Below are positions 46,209-58,078 of a stretch of DNA of 60,793 nt, piece after piece. The position numbers and the translations under genes were made by a program. The DNA is from Magnetospirillum sp. WYHS-4. GTDB lineage: Bacteria; Pseudomonadota; Alphaproteobacteria; Rhodospirillales; GLO-3. Within the stretch, counting starts at the first letter, position 1, and every line of letters begins with the position of its first letter. A model generated the notes under the pieces. The model searched no databases. It was not told where the DNA came from and saw nothing but the letters and a program-made list of their open reading frames with translations. Location of the stretch: the NCBI GenBank assembly GCA_039908345.1, contig JAMOBD010000025.1, positions 1 through 60,793 of the forward strand, in the 5' to 3' direction.

Positions 46209-46514
46209 TTGTTCGCTCTCTCGGACAGTGGAACGGGATGCCGAATCGATCTTCTGCCGGTCATGGACCTGCGGGCGGCGGGGCCATTCAAGGGCATCCT
46301 GGAACAGGCCATCGGACGGGGAGTCGAGGTGACCATCGCCGCCGCCGATGTGGAACGGCTGTCGACGCCCTGCATACAGGTCCTGCTGGCCGCGACGGCC
46401 GCCATGGAGAAGGGAGGCATCGCCTTCAGAATCGTCGGGCCGACCGATGCCTTCATTTCCGCTTTCGACGACCTGGGTCTGTTTCCGGTCATCATGAAGT
46501 GGAAGGTGGAATGA
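46209..46514 (+). CDS. STAS-domain protein heading the che operon
   Basis: This 101-residue protein has a STAS-type fold: 'RIDLLPVMDLRAAGPFKGILEQAI', 'VTIAAADVERLSTPCIQVLLAA', 'IAFRIVGPTDAFISAFDDLGL' (blocks). The position of the regulatory Ser is taken by 'RLSTPC', with S-T available. TTG at 46209 is placed 9 bases after GGAGG; a GTG at 46203 is close. A longer in-frame reading from 46029 crosses the promoter and looks non-coding. STAS proteins lead several alphaproteobacterial che operons and are thought to bind CheA or other kinases. Confidence 0.75.
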   Translation: MFALSDSGTGCRIDLLPVMDLRAAGPFKGILEQAIGRGVEVTIAAADVERLSTPCIQVLLAATAAMEKGGIAFRIVGPTDAFISAFDDLGLFPVIMKWKVE

Positions 46515-46879
46515 TGGTCAAGCGCGTCCTGACCATCGACGATTCGAAGACCATCCGCGACATGCTGGCCTTCACTCTGGGCCGCGCCGGGTTCGAATTC
46601 GTCCAGGCGGTCGACGGCCAGAAGGGACTGGAGGCGGCGCGGGCCGATGGCTTCGACGTCATCATCACCGACATCAACATGCCGGTGATGGACGGCATTA
46701 CCTTCATCCGCGAGGCACGCCGCTTGCCGCACTGCAAGGCGACGCCGATCCTGGTGCTGACCACCGAAACCTCGGACGAGAAGAAGGCCCAGGCGCGCCA
46801 AGCCGGCGCGACGGGATGGATCGTCAAGCCCTTCGATCCGGCGAAACTGCTCGCCGTGATCGCCAAGGTCAGTCCCTGA
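46511..46879 (+). CDS. cheY: CheY-type response regulator (first copy)
   Basis: This 122-residue receiver-only protein reads 'RVLTIDDSKTIRDML', phosphoacceptor Asp in 'IITDINMPVMDG', Thr in 'LVLTTETS' and Lys in 'WIVKPFDP'. Its ATG overlaps the STAS stop (ATGATG). It sits directly before cheA and is the usual phosphate sink or motor-binding CheY of these operons. Confidence 0.93.
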   Translation: MMVKRVLTIDDSKTIRDMLAFTLGRAGFEFVQAVDGQKGLEAARADGFDVIITDINMPVMDGITFIREARRLPHCKATPILVLTTETSDEKKAQARQAGATGWIVKPFDPAKLLAVIAKVSP

Positions 46880-46890
46880 GGGAGCGGGCC

Positions 46891-49074
46891 GTGGACGAAC
46901 TGGCACAATTCAAGCAGACATATTTCCAGGAATGCGAGGAACTGCTTTCCGATCTGGAACAGCACCTCATGACCATGCAGGACGGCAACACGGAAGCCGA
47001 AACCCTGCACGCCGCCTTCCGCGCCATCCATTCCATCAAGGGCGGCGCGGGAGCCTTCGGTTTCGAGCAGTTGGTCGCCTTCGCCCATACCTTCGAAACC
47101 ACTCTGGATCTGATGCGCGACGGGCGCCTGGCGCCGTCCGAGGAAGTGGTGAGGGTCTGCATTCGGGGCGGCGACGTGTTGGCCGACTTGGTGCGCGCCG
47201 CCCAGTCGGGTTCTCCCATGCCGGCCGATCATGGCGCGGACGTGCTGGCCGCCCTCAAGGCCCTGGCGGGCGGCGGCGCCGATTCCGGCGAACTGGGCCA
47301 GGACTTCGACGAGATCGACTTCACTCCCGTTCCAGCCGACGAAACCGGTGCCCCTGCGCCGTCCGCGGCGCCCGAACCCGAGCCCGAGCCCGCGGCGAAG
47401 ACGGCCTTCACTACCTATCGCATCCTGTTCACGCCACACACCGAGTTGCTGCGCCGTGCCAACGAGCCGCTTTTGCTGATCCGCGAGTTGAAGACCCTGG
47501 GGGCGATCCGGCCGGTTCCCGACCTGGGCCGTCTGCCGGCCCTCGACGACCTGGACCCCGAAGCGGCCTATATCGGCTGGACCATCGAGTTGGAGACATC
47601 CCGCGACAAGGCGGACGTCGAGGAAGTCTTCGAATTCGCCGCCGGCGATTGCGACCTGACCATCGAGGCGGTCGGCGATTCGGAACCACCGGCAGCCGAG
47701 GAAGTGGTCGTCGTCCCGGCCCCTCCGGCCGCTCCGGAAGGCCTGCGCCGCGAAGCGCCCCCGCCCCGCCCCGCCCCGCCCCCGCCGCATCCGGAAGTGG
47801 AACATGCAGGCACCGGCCCGGCAGGCCCGGCCGGTGCCGCCCGGGCGAGTTCCATCCGCGTCGACCTGGACAAGGTCGATCGCTTGGTCAACATGGTTGG
47901 CGAATTGGTGATTACCCAGGCCATGCTGATCCAGCAGTCGGGAGGCCTCGCCACCGAGGAACATCCGGAACTGATGCGCGGCATCGAGGAATTGTCGCAC
48001 CACACCCGCGATCTGCAGGAAAGCGTGATGGCGATCCGCGCCCAGCCGGTGAAGTCGGTGTTCCAGCGCATTCCCCGTCTGGTGCGCGAGACCGCCCTGG
48101 CCTGCGGCAAGAAGGTGAGGCTTGTGACCAGCGGCGAGAACACCGAAATCGACAAGACGGTGATCGAGCAGTTGGGCGATCCGCTCACCCATATGATCCG
48201 CAATGCCGTCGACCATGGCATCGAAACGCCGGAAAGGCGCATCGCCGCGGGCAAGCCCGGAGAAGGCACGATCCATCTTTCCGCTGACCACCGGGGCGGA
48301 CGTATCGTCATCGAGATCGACGACGACGGCCAGGGCATCCCGCGCGACAAGGTGCTGAAAAAAGCCGTGGAACGCGGACTCGTATCGCCGGGCGTGCAAC
48401 TGACCGAGGAGGAAATCGACAATCTGATCTTTCTGCCCGGGTTCTCGACCGCCGAGCAGGTGACCAGCGTCTCGGGACGCGGTGTCGGGATGGATGTGGT
48501 CCGCCGCAATATCCAGAACCTGGGCGGACGGGTGATCGTTCGCTCGCGGCCCGGCCACGGATCGACCTTCCTGCTCACCCTGCCGCTGACTCTCGCGGTG
48601 ATGGACGGCATGATCGTGCGGGCGGGGTCCCACTCCTACGTCCTGCCGCTGGCCAATATCATCGAAAGCCTGCGGCCCAAGCCGGCCGAATTGCATCGCA
48701 TGGTCAACGGCAACGATGTCCTGTCGATCCGCGGCGACTACGTGCAGCTCATTCCCTTGCACCGCCTGTTCAACATCCGCGATGCCGAACGGGACCCCAG
48801 CCGTGCCCTGGTGGTCATGGTGGAGACCGAAGGCGACCATCGGGTTGGCCTGGTGGTCGACGAGATCCTCGGCCAACAGCAAGTCGTCATCAAGAGCCTG
48901 GAAGACAATTTCGATCCCGTCGAGGGAGTCGCGGCCGCCACCATCCTGGGCAGCGGTCGCGTGGCCCTCATTCTCGACGTGGTCGGACTCAAGGTCATGG
49001 CGGATCGCCTGACGGCCGTCCACATGCGCCATGAGCGCACCCGCATCGAACACGTCGAGACCCTGGAGGCTTGA
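46891..49074 (+). CDS. cheA: Chemotaxis histidine kinase CheA
   Basis: This 727-residue kinase autophosphorylates and passes phosphate to CheY and CheB. The Hpt site is His47 in AIHSIKGGAGAFGF. Residues 160-290 form a second globular part after an Ala/Pro/Glu linker ('TYRILFTPHTELLRRANEP'). Dimerisation ('IRVDLDKVDRLVNMVGELVI'), the ATPase (N box 'HMIRNAVDHGIE', G boxes 'DDDGQGI' and 'GRGVGMDVV') and the CheW-like P5 follow. GTG start after GAGGGAGCGGGCC. cheW follows after three bases. Confidence 0.95.
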   Translation: MDELAQFKQTYFQECEELLSDLEQHLMTMQDGNTEAETLHAAFRAIHSIKGGAGAFGFEQLVAFAHTFETTLDLMRDGRLAPSEEVVRVCIRGGDVLADLVRAAQSGSPMPADHGADVLAALKALAGGGADSGELGQDFDEIDFTPVPADETGAPAPSAAPEPEPEPAAKTAFTTYRILFTPHTELLRRANEPLLLIRELKTLGAIRPVPDLGRLPALDDLDPEAAYIGWTIELETSRDKADVEEVFEFAAGDCDLTIEAVGDSEPPAAEEVVVVPAPPAAPEGLRREAPPPRPAPPPPHPEVEHAGTGPAGPAGAARASSIRVDLDKVDRLVNMVGELVITQAMLIQQSGGLATEEHPELMRGIEELSHHTRDLQESVMAIRAQPVKSVFQRIPRLVRETALACGKKVRLVTSGENTEIDKTVIEQLGDPLTHMIRNAVDHGIETPERRIAAGKPGEGTIHLSADHRGGRIVIEIDDDGQGIPRDKVLKKAVERGLVSPGVQLTEEEIDNLIFLPGFSTAEQVTSVSGRGVGMDVVRRNIQNLGGRVIVRSRPGHGSTFLLTLPLTLAVMDGMIVRAGSHSYVLPLANIIESLRPKPAELHRMVNGNDVLSIRGDYVQLIPLHRLFNIRDAERDPSRALVVMVETEGDHRVGLVVDEILGQQQVVIKSLEDNFDPVEGVAAATILGSGRVALILDVVGLKVMADRLTAVHMRHERTRIEHVETLEA

Positions 49075-49077
49075 GCC

Positions 49078-49626
49078 ATGATGGACCTCGCCAACGAATT
49101 CCCTTCGGCCGGCATGCCGACCCGGAAGGAGGAAAAGCCGGTCGGCCCCACCGTCCAGCTCATCACCTTCACCATCGGCGACGAGGAATACGGCGTCGAC
49201 ATCATGGCGGTGCGCGAGATCCGCGCCTGGGCGGAAACCACGCTCTTGCCGAATACGCCCAAATACGTGCGGGGCGTCATCAACCTCCGGGGCACCATCG
49301 TGCCGATCTATGACCTGCGGGCCCGCTTCGGCATGGGGGCCACCGACGCCAGCAAGACCCACGTGGTCATCGTGGTGGGTATCGGCGGGCGCACCATCGG
49401 CATCCTGGTCGATACGGTCTCCGACATTCTGACCGTGACCGAACACGATGTCCGCCCGGTTCCCGACATGGAACTGACGGTGGACGGAGCCTTCCTGAGC
49501 GGCCTGATCACGGTGCAAGACCACATGGTGGCCTTGATCCAACTCGACAAGCTGTTCGACACGACGCTGGCGGTTGCCGGCACTGCGACCAAGGGGGCGG
49601 AGAGCCTGCCGTCCCCGGGAACCTGA
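49078..49626 (+). CDS. cheW: Chemotaxis coupling protein CheW
   Basis: This 182-residue scaffold links receptors to CheA. The core reads '[21 protein letters not shown]', '[18 protein letters not shown]', '[12 protein letters not shown]' (blocks). A 20-residue N-terminal extension and a 15-residue tail are additional. It lies between cheA and a receptor gene. Confidence 0.95.
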
Positions 49627-52381: not shown

Positions 52382-53239
52382 ATGGCCGTTTCCAAGGGAG
52401 GCACGGTCGCCGAGCGGGAATTCCACCTGGGCGAGGAAGAATTCCGCTTCCTCGTCGACATGGTCCATCAACGCACCGGCATCGTGCTGGGCGAGCACAA
52501 GCGGACCATGATCTACGGCCGTTTGGCGCGCCGCCTGCGCCAGTTGGGCATGAACAGTTTCCGGGACTATTGCGATCTGATCGCCGGCGATCACGGAACC
52601 GCCGAAATCGGCTTCTTCGTCAACGCGGTGACCACCAACCTCACCCGCTTTTTCCGCGAAGGCCATCACTTCGACCACCTGCGCGACGAGTTCCTGCCCG
52701 CCCTGGCCAGGCGGGCGGAAGGCGGGGCGCCCAGGCGGCTGCGCATCTGGTCGGCCGGCTGTTCCTCGGGCGAGGAGCCCTACACCATCGCCATGACCCT
52801 GCGCGAAGGTCTTCGCGATCTGGACCGCTGGGACGCCCGCATCCTGGCTACCGACATCGATACCGACATGCTGGACAAAGGAGAGGCCGGGCTTTACCCG
52901 GCGGATTCCCAGGAAGGCATCCCCGAAGCCTACCGCGGGCGCTATACGGAAAGCCAAGGCGGCAAGATCAGGATGAAGGACTCGCTGCGTTCCCTGATCG
53001 CCTTCAAGCGGCTCAATCTGTTGGGCCGCTGGCCGATGAAGGGCCCCTTCGATGCCATCTTCTGCCGGAATGTGGTCATCTACTTCGATCGCCCGACCCA
53101 GACCGCCTTGTTCGGACGCTATGCCGAGTTGCTGGCCGACCACGGCTTTCTTTACGTCGGCCATTCCGAGAATTTGTTCAACGTTACCGACCGCTTCCGC
53201 TTGGTGGGACGGAGCGTCTACCGCAAGGCACCTGTTTGA
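52382..53239 (+). CDS. cheR: Chemotaxis protein methyltransferase CheR
   Basis: This 285-residue SAM-dependent enzyme methylates receptor glutamates. N-terminal helical domain 'RFLVDMVHQRTGIVLGEHKR', then 'TTNLTRFFREGHHFDHL', SAM-binding 'IWSAGCSSGEEPYTIAM', 'ILATDIDTDML' and 'IFCRNVVIYFD' (blocks). It starts two bases after the NIT receptor stop. Confidence 0.95.
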   Translation: MAVSKGGTVAEREFHLGEEEFRFLVDMVHQRTGIVLGEHKRTMIYGRLARRLRQLGMNSFRDYCDLIAGDHGTAEIGFFVNAVTTNLTRFFREGHHFDHLRDEFLPALARRAEGGAPRRLRIWSAGCSSGEEPYTIAMTLREGLRDLDRWDARILATDIDTDMLDKGEAGLYPADSQEGIPEAYRGRYTESQGGKIRMKDSLRSLIAFKRLNLLGRWPMKGPFDAIFCRNVVIYFDRPTQTALFGRYAELLADHGFLYVGHSENLFNVTDRFRLVGRSVYRKAPV

Positions 53240-53320: not shown

Positions 53321-54379
53321 ATGGCTGGCAAGATACGCGTTCTGATCGTCGACGACTCGGCGTTGATCCGCCAGATGCTGACGGCCATGCTGAGCGAAGA
53401 CCCAGAGTTGGAGGTCGTCGGCTCCGCTTCCGATCCCTTGATCGCGCGCGAGAGGATCAAGGAACTCAATCCGGACGTCATCACCTTGGATGTCGAGATG
53501 CCGCGCATGGACGGCATCAGCTTCCTGCGCAAGATCATGAAATTGCGGCCGATGCCGGTGGTGATGGTTTCCACCCTGACCCAGAAGGGGGCCGAGGTCA
53601 CCCTCGAGGCTCTGGAAATCGGCGCCGTCGACTTCGTCGGCAAGCCGACCATCGACATGCAGCAGGGCATGGCCGGCAAGAAGGAGGAGATCATCTCCAA
53701 GGTCAAGGCGGCCGCCCGTGCCCGCGTGCGCGTCCCCGCCGACCTGAATTCCCCGGCGCAACGGCCGAAGGTTCTGGCCGTTCCGGCCGGCCCGGGCTTC
53801 CGCACTACCGATCGCATCGTCGCCATCGGCGCTTCGACCGGCGGCGTGGAGGCGCTACGCGAGGTGATCTGCGCCCTGCCCGCCGACTGCCCGCCCATCC
53901 TGATTACCCAGCACATGCCGGTGAAATTCACCGAAAGCTTCGCCAAGCGGCTCGATTCCATGGCGGCGCTGGCGGTTTCGGAAGCCCGTGATGGTGAACG
54001 GGCCGTGCCGGGCCACGTCTACATCGCGCCCGGCGGCCAGCATCTGGAACTGGTCCGGTCCGGCGGCACCTACGGCTGCAAGGTCTACGACGGACCGCTG
54101 GTGTCCGGTCACCGGCCCTCGGTCGACGTGCTGTTCCGGTCGGTGGCCGCCCAGGCCGGTCCCAACGCGGTGGGCGCCATTCTCACCGGCATGGGCCGGG
54201 ACGGGGCCGAAGGCCTGATGGCCATGCGCGAGGCCGGCGCGATGACCCTCGGCCAGGACGAATCCACGGCCCTGGTCTATGGGATGCCGCGGGTCGCCAA
54301 GGAAATCGGCGCCGTCCAGGTCGAATTGCCCTTGAGCCGCATCGCCGAAGGAATCCTTAAGCACAGCAGCGGCGGCTGA
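53321..54379 (+). CDS. cheB: Chemotaxis-specific methylesterase CheB
   Basis: This 352-residue enzyme demethylates and deamidates receptors. The receiver domain has Asp57 in TLDVEMPRMDG. The esterase has Ser172 in GASTGG, His in 'ITQHMPVKFTESFAKRL' and Asp in 'ILTGMGRDGAEG'. 81 bases, including a hairpin, separate it from cheR. Phosphorylation by CheA relieves the block by the receiver. Confidence 0.96.
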   Translation: MAGKIRVLIVDDSALIRQMLTAMLSEDPELEVVGSASDPLIARERIKELNPDVITLDVEMPRMDGISFLRKIMKLRPMPVVMVSTLTQKGAEVTLEALEIGAVDFVGKPTIDMQQGMAGKKEEIISKVKAAARARVRVPADLNSPAQRPKVLAVPAGPGFRTTDRIVAIGASTGGVEALREVICALPADCPPILITQHMPVKFTESFAKRLDSMAALAVSEARDGERAVPGHVYIAPGGQHLELVRSGGTYGCKVYDGPLVSGHRPSVDVLFRSVAAQAGPNAVGAILTGMGRDGAEGLMAMREAGAMTLGQDESTALVYGMPRVAKEIGAVQVELPLSRIAEGILKHSSGG

Positions 54380-54450: not shown

Positions 54451-54840
54451 ATGCCGCAAGCGCACAATCTCAAGATCCTGATCGTCGACGACCAGCAGAG
54501 CATGCGGGGCTTGCTCCGCTACGGCCTGCAGCAGCTGGGCGTCCGCAACGTGGTCGAGGCCAAGGACGGAGGAGAGGCGCTGCAGGCGCTGCTCGCCAAC
54601 AAGTTCGATCTGGTGATCTCGGACTGGAACATGGACGGCATGGACGGCCTGACCTTGCTGAAGACCATCCGCTCCAATCCGCTGATCAAGAAGACGCCCT
54701 TCATCATGTCGACGGGGCAGAAGGACCAGGAAAAGGTCCGCGAGGCCATCCAGGCCGGCGTCAACAACTACGTGGTCAAGCCCTTCAACGTCGAAACCCT
54801 GAAGAAGAAGATGGAAGCCGTCATCGGCAAGCTCGAATAG
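54451..54840 (+). CDS. cheY: CheY-type response regulator (second copy)
   Basis: This 129-residue receiver-only protein is closer to classical CheY than the first copy: 'ILIVDDQQSMRGLLRYGLQQLG', phosphoacceptor Asp in 'VISDWNMDGMDG', Thr in 'IMSTGQKDQ', Lys in 'YVVKPFNV'. ATG 54451 follows GGGGGAAGAAG; a TTG at 54433 is less likely. One of the two CheY proteins probably drives the motor while the other drains phosphate; which is which cannot be told. Confidence 0.94.
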   Translation: MPQAHNLKILIVDDQQSMRGLLRYGLQQLGVRNVVEAKDGGEALQALLANKFDLVISDWNMDGMDGLTLLKTIRSNPLIKKTPFIMSTGQKDQEKVREAIQAGVNNYVVKPFNVETLKKKMEAVIGKLE

Positions 54841-54844
54841 TCCC

Positions 54845-55681
54845 ATGGTCGGACCGGCCGGCACCCATATCGTCGTGGTCGGCAACGAAAAGGGCGGGGC
54901 CGGCAAGACCACGGCGGCGATGCATTTGGCGGTAGCCTTGATGCGCATGGGTTATCCGGTGGGGACCATCGATCTCGATCCCCGCCAGCGCACCTTGACC
55001 CGCTACGTCGAGAACCGGTCGCGCTGGATGGAAGAAAACCCCGTTCGCCTGCCGCGACCCGAACACCGCCTGGTGATCCGCAGCACCCTCGACAGCATTC
55101 AGGACGCCGCCCGCGACGAAGAAGACCGCCTTGCCGCCACGGTCGAGGAACTGGGCCGCACCTGCCCCTTCCTGGTGGTGGATTGCCCAGGCAACGACGT
55201 GCCGCTGGCCCGCTTCGCCCATACCTTCGCCGATACCCTGATCACGCCGATCAACGACAGCCTGGTCGACCTGGACCTGTTGGTCGAATTGCATCCCACC
55301 ACGCTGGCCCTCGAACGGCCGGGAGTCTATGCGGCGATGATCCTGGAGCAGCGCCGCGCCCGCCTGGGGGGCTGGCGGCGGGGGTGCGACTGGATACTGC
55401 TGCGCAACCGCTTGTCGGCGCTCAACGACCACAACAAGCGGCGCGTCCTCGCCACGCTGGAAAGCCTGTCCAAGACCCTGGGCTTCCGCATGGTGCGCGG
55501 ATTCGGCGAACGTATCGTCTTCCGCCAGCTTTTCCTTGCCGGGCTGACGGTGCTGGACCTGCGCGAACCGGGCACCGGCATCCCGCTCACCATGTCACAC
55601 GTCGCAGCCCGCCAGGAAGTGCGCCAACTGGTCGAAGCCCTCTGGCTGCCGCGCCTGGAGGGCAAGCTGGATATGATCTGA
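54845..55681 (+). CDS. mipZ: MipZ-type ParA/MinD-family ATPase in the che operon
   Basis: This 278-residue P-loop ATPase has a deviant Walker A GNEKGGAGKTT (13-23), 'TIDLDPRQRTLTRYVENR' and 'FLVVDCPGNDVPLARFAH', matching the MipZ family that positions the division plane in alphaproteobacteria. It starts five bases after the second cheY and ends one base from a convergent gene. Chemotaxis operons often carry ParA-like proteins that place receptor arrays (ParC, PpfA). Here a MipZ-type protein occupies that place, so an array-positioning role is possible. Whether the genome has another MipZ is unknown. Confidence 0.85.
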   Translation: MVGPAGTHIVVVGNEKGGAGKTTAAMHLAVALMRMGYPVGTIDLDPRQRTLTRYVENRSRWMEENPVRLPRPEHRLVIRSTLDSIQDAARDEEDRLAATVEELGRTCPFLVVDCPGNDVPLARFAHTFADTLITPINDSLVDLDLLVELHPTTLALERPGVYAAMILEQRRARLGGWRRGCDWILLRNRLSALNDHNKRRVLATLESLSKTLGFRMVRGFGERIVFRQLFLAGLTVLDLREPGTGIPLTMSHVAARQEVRQLVEALWLPRLEGKLDMI

Positions 55682-56107
55682 TCAGAACAGCTCGACGTCG
55701 GGAACGGCGGCCGAAGGGGTGGCCGGGTCCGTGCCACGCAGGCGGGCGGCCAAGCGCTGGCGCATGGCTTCGAGGGGTAGTCCGTCCAGCAGGCCGGCCG
55801 CGATTCGGTCGCGCAGATCCGCATCCGACCCCGCGGCCGGCGTCATGGCTGCCAGATCGACGACGGCGCTTCTCAGGCGGGCCAGGAGCATCGCGACCTG
55901 TTCCTGGTGCTGGCGGATCAGATCCTCGCTCTGCAGGGCCCCGATCACCTCGGGAAAGTGGCCTTCCTCCCCTCGCAGGTGCGTCCCGATGGTCTGGGCG
56001 CACCGTTCCTGTTCGGCGGCCACGGCGACGATTTCCGCTTCCGCCGCCTCCAGGCCGGCAACCATCACCTCGCCCAGGGCGAGCCATCGTTCCAAGGTTG
56101 GCTTCAT
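55682..56107 (-). CDS. CheT/CheZ-like candidate CheY-phosphate phosphatase
   Basis: This 141-residue all-helical protein has 'IGALQSEDLIRQHQEQV' at residues 55-71. The DLIRQ is a D-x-x-x-Q motif (Asp62, Gln66) that lines up without gaps on the catalytic AQDFQDLTGQ of CheZ. A flexible Ala/Pro linker follows, then the end DVELF, where CheZ has its CheY-binding ...LGF tail. S. meliloti CheT, also DxxxQ-bearing, is encoded in a similar operon. The gene is on the opposite strand to the operon. Overall similarity to either family cannot be judged by eye. Confidence 0.55.
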   Translation of the reverse strand: MKPTLERWLALGEVMVAGLEAAEAEIVAVAAEQERCAQTIGTHLRGEEGHFPEVIGALQSEDLIRQHQEQVAMLLARLRSAVVDLAAMTPAAGSDADLRDRIAAGLLDGLPLEAMRQRLAARLRGTDPATPSAAVPDVELF

Positions 56108-56273: not shown

Positions 56274-57446
56274 ATGGAACGCTGGCAAGTCCAGGAGGTG
56301 CTTTATTTGCATCGGCTGTGGACGCTGGGAAGTCCCGGCGGCCGTCGTGCGGATTTGTCCGGACAGGATCTGGGCGGCCTACCCTTGGCCGGGGCCGCCC
56401 TGGAACGCGCCAAACTGGCCGGAGCCAATCTCGCCAGATGCGACCTGCGCGCCGCCAAGCTTGGCGGGGCCGACCTGTTCGGCGCCAACCTGGCTGGAGC
56501 CGACCTCGCCGGAGCCGATCTGGAAAACGCCGATCTGCGTGGCGCCGTGTTGCGCGATGCGAACCTTTCCGTCGCCAACCTCAAGGGCGCCAACATGCGC
56601 CGCGGGCTCAGCCTGGGCGGCGGCGCCGATGCCCCGCCCCAGGTTCTCCGACAGGACTTGCGCGGCGCCACCTTGGACGGCGCCGACTTGGCCGGGGTTG
56701 ACGCGGCTTCCGCCGATTTCACGGGCGCCAGCCTCGATTCCGCCAACCTGGAGAACGCGTCCCTGGCCGATGCCGAAATGGAGGGTGCCGTTCTCGCCCA
56801 CGCCAATTTGGCCAACGTCGAGCTAGGCGGCGCCAACCTGGAAAACTGCGACCTCCGGGGCGCCGTGCTGGATGGTGCCAACCTCGATGGCGCGACGATG
56901 CGCGGCGCCAATCTGGCCGGCGTCGACCTGTCCACCGCCGTGGTCGATGGCGCCGACCTGGCCGGAGCGGTCCTGGAAGGGGCGACCATCCCGGAGCCCA
57001 TCGACCGCCGGCCCCGCGATCTGGCGGCGCTGCTGGTCGACCACCGCGCCTGGCTGGCCGACCAGGGGGGGCGGGCCCTGGTCCTGGATCGGGCGGACCT
57101 CAGTTTCGTCGATCTGGCGGGAAGGAACCTGTCCGGGGCCATCTTGCGCCAAGCCGATCTGCGCGGCGCCGAACTGACCAAATGCAAACTGGTCCTGGCC
57201 GATCTGACCGGATGCAACCTGACGGGGGCCGTGCTGCGCGGGGCCGACTTGCGCGGCGCGATTCTCCGGGGCGCCGACCTGACCGGAGCCGACCTCGGAG
57301 ACGCCGATCTGCGTTCGGGCCGGGTCGCCGAGGGGGCCAGCATCCTGGAACGGCCGGTCGACCTGACCGACGCCAACCTGGCGGACGCCAATCTGGAGGG
57401 AGCCGTAGGCCTTCCGGCCGACGCCAAGGGGGGGCAGGGGGAATGA
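56274..57446 (+). CDS. Pentapeptide-repeat protein
   Basis: This 390-residue protein is made of A(D/N)LxG repeats in two blocks (about 26-238 and 275-385) forming right-handed quadrilateral beta-helices. Between them is a helical insert 'RRPRDLAALLVDHRAWLADQGG' (block split at DL). There is no signal peptide. The N-terminal 15 residues are helical. Functions of such proteins vary (DNA-gyrase mimicry, scaffolds). The stop overlaps the cheD start (ATGA), so it is translated together with cheD. Confidence 0.9.
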   Translation: MERWQVQEVLYLHRLWTLGSPGGRRADLSGQDLGGLPLAGAALERAKLAGANLARCDLRAAKLGGADLFGANLAGADLAGADLENADLRGAVLRDANLSVANLKGANMRRGLSLGGGADAPPQVLRQDLRGATLDGADLAGVDAASADFTGASLDSANLENASLADAEMEGAVLAHANLANVELGGANLENCDLRGAVLDGANLDGATMRGANLAGVDLSTAVVDGADLAGAVLEGATIPEPIDRRPRDLAALLVDHRAWLADQGGRALVLDRADLSFVDLAGRNLSGAILRQADLRGAELTKCKLVLADLTGCNLTGAVLRGADLRGAILRGADLTGADLGDADLRSGRVAEGASILERPVDLTDANLADANLEGAVGLPADAKGGQGE

Positions 57447-58078
57447 TGAAGCCGGCAGCGACGGCACGCGTCATCGCCGCGGACGACATCGACGACACCC
57501 GGCGTCGCTATTTCGATCCGGTGCTCAAGGTTACCGTGGTCTCCGTCTTCCAGGGCGATTTCTACATCACCGCCCGGCCGGGGGAGATGCTGTCCACGGT
57601 CCTCGGGTCCTGCATCGCCGCCTGCATTCGCGATCCCATCGCCGGGGTCGGGGGGATGAACCATTTCCTGCTGCCCGACGCGGGCGGAGCCGATGGCGGC
57701 GGCGCGGGCGTGGAATTGCGCTACGGCAGCTACTCCATGGAACAGTTGATCAACGGCATTCTGTCCCGCGGCGGCCGGCGCGAGCGCCTGGAGGTCAAGG
57801 TGTTCGGCGGTGCCAATGTGATCCGGTCGTCGTCGGCCGTCGGACATCGCAACGCCGACTTCATCGAAGGCTACCTGACCAACGAAGGTCTGGCCATCGG
57901 CAGCCGCCACCTACGTGGCACCCTGCCTCGCAAGATCCAGTACTTTCCCGCCTCCGGCCTGGTACGCATGAAGGAAATCGCCGAAGTCGTCGCCAACCGG
58001 GTCTTCGAGCGCGAGACCGCCCATCAGGTTCGGCTGCGTCCCTCGCCCGCCGCGGGTTCCATCGAGCTTTTCGACTAA
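57443..58078 (+). CDS. cheD: Chemoreceptor glutamine deamidase CheD
   Basis: This 211-residue enzyme deamidates receptor Gln residues. Catalytic Cys57 is in LGSCIAAC, His74 in GGMNHFLLP, then 'KVFGGANV' and '[17 protein letters not shown]' (blocks). An N-terminal extension of about 25 residues precedes the core. It ends IELFD, close to the DVELF end of the nearby phosphatase candidate. Start ATG overlaps the pentapeptide gene stop. Confidence 0.94.

Follow-up and report, generated by a model that had tools for sequence, protein, structure and literature searches.

Gene organization of the chemotaxis locus

The window, which is the whole stretch of DNA analyzed here, comprises 60,793 nucleotides of contig JAMOBD010000025.1 from Magnetospirillum sp. 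WYHS-4. The features considered below are the following.

46263..46514 (start approximate), plus strand: STAS-domain protein, CheS-like (PF13466, E 1.4e-9; 36% identity to the S. meliloti STAS gene at the same position)
46511..46879, plus strand: cheY1 (PF00072; 61% identity to S. meliloti CheY1)
46816..49074, plus strand: cheA (longest frame, true start probably past the cheY1 stop; 44% identity to S. meliloti CheA)
49078..49626, plus strand: cheW (47% identity to S. meliloti CheW)
52394..53239 (5' end approximate), plus strand: cheR (44% identity to S. meliloti CheR)
53321..54379, plus strand: cheB (57% identity to S. meliloti CheB)
54451..54840, plus strand: cheY2, its product the likely substrate (PF00072; 46% identity to S. 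meliloti CheY2)
54845..55681, plus strand: MipZ/ParA-like ATPase of the che cluster (PF09140, E 6e-97; adjoins the cheT-like gene in L003, L029 and L030)
55682..56107, minus strand: cheT-like gene (141 aa from ATG; relatives retrieved)
55910..55924, minus strand: codons D62-L-I-R-Q66 of the DxxxQ motif (in the second long predicted helix, residues 51-88; invariant in 30/30 relatives)
55685..55699, minus strand: codons of the C-terminal DVELF tail (predicted disordered; tail L and F invariant in alignment A2)
57443..58078, plus strand: cheD, ending SIELFD (PF03975)

From the STAS (CheS-like) gene through cheY1, cheA, cheW, cheR, cheB and cheY2 to cheD, the order of genes is that of the S. meliloti set, and the operon contains two cheY genes as it does in S. 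meliloti. ORF 55682-56107 is a genuine gene. It is divergent from a pentapeptide-repeat gene and convergent with the mipZ-like gene, and the stops of the two convergent genes abut base-to-base. The original prediction, which proposed a CheY-phosphate phosphatase on the basis of a DxxxQ motif, placed this gene beside mipZ and cheD; the first of these neighbors is confirmed, whereas the pentapeptide-repeat gene (56274-57446) intervenes before cheD. This intervening gene codes for a protein of 390 aa, and it neighbors the cheT-like gene in L031 and cheD in L071. The MipZ/ParA-like ATPase accompanies the cheT-like gene in several Magnetospirillum-like genomes and is possibly involved in array positioning; a MipZ search of genomes G001 and G121 was empty. 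A scan for promoters and terminators around the cheT-like gene found nothing above chance.

The ALQSEDLIRQ stretch is present in the protein with D62 and Q66 correctly assigned, 4 of its 10 positions being identical to the CheZ stretch with which it had been aligned. The C-terminus reads PDVELF, in agreement with the DVELF end noted originally. Searched alone against Pfam, NCBIfam and PDB sequences, the 141-aa protein gave chance-level matches only. Two candidates were discarded: Cupin_NOL9 (E 0.14) as chance-level, and Csx15 (E 0.009) as far under its cut-off.

Conservation of the DxxxQ motif

By our own estimate, DxxxQ is expected by chance in roughly one third of proteins of this size, and one-to-one BLASTP between the window protein and S. 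meliloti CheT was not significant (E 0.23), so the motif by itself is no proof of function. It rises above the chance level because both residues are conserved across relatives. A search of the genomes of the order returned two relatives at first and then many, among them records named as Magnetospirillum aberrantis SpK and M. fulvum DSM 13234. One match of the initial homologue search, L004, contained stops and was discarded as spurious. D and Q were invariant in all 30 retrieved relatives, down to ~23% identity, as well as in 22 of 22 rows of A2 (the alignment of the window protein's family) and in all 15 sequences of the CheT set described below. The complete list of invariant A2 columns is W8, E25, Q59, D62, Q66, L112, R116, L123, L140 and F141. 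Loss of DxxxQ in orthologues had been named beforehand as an observation that would count against the phosphatase; the motif is kept in all of them, and this objection therefore fails.

Nearly all relatives are found beside cheB or cheD, and of those in one family of the order almost every one is 160-170 aa long and encoded immediately 3' of cheD-cheB. The same MipZ-like ATPase adjoins several of them. In L031, which belongs to another family, the arrangement is that of the window, with cheY, the cheT-like gene on the minus strand and the pentapeptide-repeat gene.

Relationship to CheT

According to a review (PMC12654446) that cites Agbekudzi et al. 2024, S. meliloti CheT has a DXXXQ motif and a CheZ-like predicted fold, and speeds the dephosphorylation of one CheY. 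We located it as the gene after cheD in CP090106.1 (L079:8555-8926). Two further groups of Alphaproteobacteria have relatives of it encoded next to cheD or cheY. Together, S. meliloti CheT and these relatives made up a CheT set of 15 sequences, from which a profile was built without the window protein. Its members have, in this order, an E in helix 1, LQxxDxxxQ, an (L)xxMxxRL segment and an acidic tail ending in F, and the window protein has the same features in the same order.

The comparison of profiles, which the original prediction had put forward as a check, supported a relationship with CheT. In hmmsearch the window protein ranked first of 2503 sequences (window frames plus shuffles) with E 8.5e-6, and the best of 2000 shuffles reached E 0.11. 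Against the whole genome the CheT profile placed the cheT-like gene at the top (E 0.003), tied with a coiled-coil protein. Alignment of the window family with the CheT set by hhalign gave 84.5% and E 7e-6 with no column-shuffled decoy near, and 87% and E 3.7e-6 after the most distant members were dropped. The window-family profile against the lone S. meliloti CheT sequence was not significant.

The window protein resembles S. meliloti CheT in size (141 vs 124 aa), LQxxDxxxQ, the amphipathic (L)xxMxxRL segment and the acidic F-ending tail, with ~25% identity over the alignable part, and the S. meliloti CheT operon has the same STAS gene, cheY1, cheA, W, R, B, cheY2 and cheD. Unlike in S. meliloti, the window gene is on the opposite strand between the MipZ-like and pentapeptide-repeat genes, and the genome also has CheZ. 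Because DxxxQ is conserved, the CheT profile ranks the protein first and the operon with two CheY matches that of S. meliloti, the reading as a CheT-like protein is supported. We consider the product of the gene to be probably a divergent CheT. It would be a candidate auxiliary phosphatase, small and all-helical, of a two-CheY chemotaxis operon of the S. meliloti type, and would dephosphorylate CheY2 and/or CheY1.

Relationship to CheZ

The window protein falls outside the CheZ family PF04344. It had no match to this family at E 10, was not among the PF04344 matches in its own genome at E 1, and was not listed in a CheZ profile search, so that the comparison with CheZ, also put forward as a check, did not bear out direct CheZ membership. 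The window family matched the CheZ profile at E 0.015 with DxxxQ aligned, but at 0.28 without the two most distant members, and for this reason we do not claim a direct link; the CheT and CheZ profiles, compared directly, scored no better than decoys.

In the moderate-confidence model of the window protein DxxxQ is on helix 2 of a predicted hairpin, as it is in CheZ; the spacing of D62 and Q66 is that of CheZ, and a disordered linker and a C-terminal docking-like peptide occur in both. In contrast to the window protein, CheZ has AXXFQ, a described motif (PMC7750401), directly before DxxxQ (ACGFQ-DITGQ in CheZ of related genomes vs ALQSE-DLIRQ), and alphaproteobacterial CheZ has an end of the AEIDALLASFD type in place of DVELF. 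We classify the protein as a divergent CheT, not CheZ, that would work in the manner of CheZ.

The view that CheZ is typical of beta- and gamma-proteobacteria proved too narrow, since 60 of the order's 78 good genomes had a CheZ-Pfam match. In the genome studied here, a canonical CheZ of 225 aa is encoded next to another CheY, and there are other CheZ-like proteins as well. A second phosphatase thus exists in this organism, which we counted against the CheT-like reading.

Predicted structure and possible mechanism

In the AlphaFold model of the window protein (six sequences; pLDDT 67.5, and under 50 for residues 129-141), long helices 2-44 and 51-88 are accompanied by two short ones and a disordered tail; an orthologue was modeled with the same arrangement (pLDDT 72). 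As in CheZ, the DxxxQ of this moderate-confidence model is on its second long helix. Foldseek and VIA-align returned long helical hairpins of many kinds and many unrelated bundles, and did not discriminate among them; CheZ was unlisted, an absence that carries no weight, and a soluble chemoreceptor matched at Z 9.2, within the noise range for helical bundles.

As far as a model of this confidence allows, the two long helices would form a hairpin, and D62 and Q66 on helix 2 would be presented to the active site of CheY-phosphate. There they may orient the attacking water as in CheZ, by which the signal would be ended. The short amphipathic helices and the flexible acidic DVELF tail may dock on CheY, on CheR/CheB or on the array.

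C-terminal tail and docking

Two of the receptors encoded in the window have the usual CheR pentapeptide at their ends (EWEEF and EWQEF). The pattern of such pentapeptides is x-aromatic-x-x-aromatic, which the DFEAF end of S. meliloti CheT fits better than DVELF does. Besides, (D/E)xELF was found at, or 1-3 residues from, the end of most CheD proteins in these loci, including the CheD of the window (SIELFD), and no other gene of the window cluster has an ELF tail. CheD proteins of these loci and CheT-like proteins have a common C-terminal G(D/E)(V/I)ELF. The ELF tail common to CheD and CheT-like proteins suggests a common binding partner in these operons. As DVELF fits the pentapeptide less well than DFEAF and ELF recurs in CheD, several partners are conceivable for the tail, among them CheR/CheB and CheY.

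The tail also bears on the possibility that the protein is a CheT homologue serving mainly in docking or adaptation (its pentapeptide-like tail could bind CheR, for example) and hardly or not at all active as a phosphatase, D and Q being kept for binding CheY. Its D-x-E-x-F resembles the two receptor pentapeptides and is as invariant as DxxxQ, and S. meliloti CheT was reported to bind CheR (PMC12654446, citing Agbekudzi et al. 2024). However, D and Q are the exact catalytic pair of CheZ and are invariant in three separately collected sets, Q66 is not needed for bare docking, and the tail is without the aromatic residue at -4 found in pentapeptides. We regard this explanation as unlikely, and a phosphatase of the CheT type as the preferred reading.

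Receptor-like relatives with an MCP domain

A class-wide search with A2 found proteins of ~370-535 aa, mostly adjoining cheB or cheD, with cheY-cheA in some small genomes. They are made up of an N-terminal W..LS..Q helix, an MCP domain and two further helices, (L)QFQDRxxQ and then one of the GEMRERF type, with a (D)DIELF end that hardly varies. The MCP signaling domain PF00015 was detected at E 1e-21 to 1e-25 (L046, L047 and L054) and is absent from the window protein in the Pfam search. The receptor-like proteins (~400 aa, near cheB, in other Alphaproteobacteria) are like the window protein in having the N-terminal helix, DxxxQ helix, amphipathic helix and tail, and differ from it by the MCP hairpin inserted between the N-terminal and DxxxQ helices. 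Their C-terminal part matched A2 at E 3e-15, or 1.5e-11 once the two most distant members were dropped, and it matched CheZ at E 1.3e-5; through these matches the receptor-like proteins bridge the two. No description of MCP-DxxxQ fusions was found in the literature searched.

Receptor-like loci include L046 655-1860, L047 1408-3015 and L054 688-1887, among others. Those of L059-L062 start with hydrophobic, membrane-like N-termini, and in L066 391-1779 the MCP-DxxxQ unit is tandemly duplicated, the second copy being without DxxxQ.

Several members of 203-323 aa, from one family of the window's order, had no MCP tip but kept both ends, and one of these tip-less members gave a weak match to Pfam CheZ (E 0.004). 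The simplest reading is that the tip was lost step by step within this order, with gain as the alternative. With wider relatives carrying an MCP signaling hairpin and a MipZ-like ATPase often adjoining the gene, one might regard the protein as a remnant, a receptor-like protein minus its tip that now serves only as a scaffold in organizing the receptor array or in its MipZ-driven positioning; yet the retained part, consisting of no more than the tail and the DxxxQ and amphipathic helices, is strongly conserved, and L031 keeps the gene although the MipZ search of its genome was empty, which argues weakly in the same direction, so that we give this explanation little credence. The protein might also be an unrelated coiled-coil protein in which DxxxQ arose by chance, as the frequency of the motif and the failure of single-sequence searches to find a family might suggest. 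This is most improbable and already refuted by the conservation of the motif in 30/30 relatives; the che context is conserved too, and the profile matches stand well clear of those with shuffled controls.

Beyond the assignment to CheT, we put forward a tentative proposal, which we hold to be possible though doubtful, that CheT, the window protein and CheZ are one phosphatase module. Its ancestral or intermediate form would have been a chemoreceptor-like protein with a phosphatase site at the base of its own coiled coil, which would combine kinase control and signal termination in one component of the array. From this form the MCP tip may have been deleted stepwise in this order (535-400, 323-203, ~160 and 141 aa), and the (D/E)xELF docking tail would be common with CheD.

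Implications

CheT, which has been described in rhizobia, appears to extend to Magnetospirillum-like bacteria and their kin, and CheZ can occur together with a CheT-like protein in the same organism, each beside its own CheY. The proposed link from small phosphatases to receptor-like proteins that carry a DxxxQ site of their own is testable.
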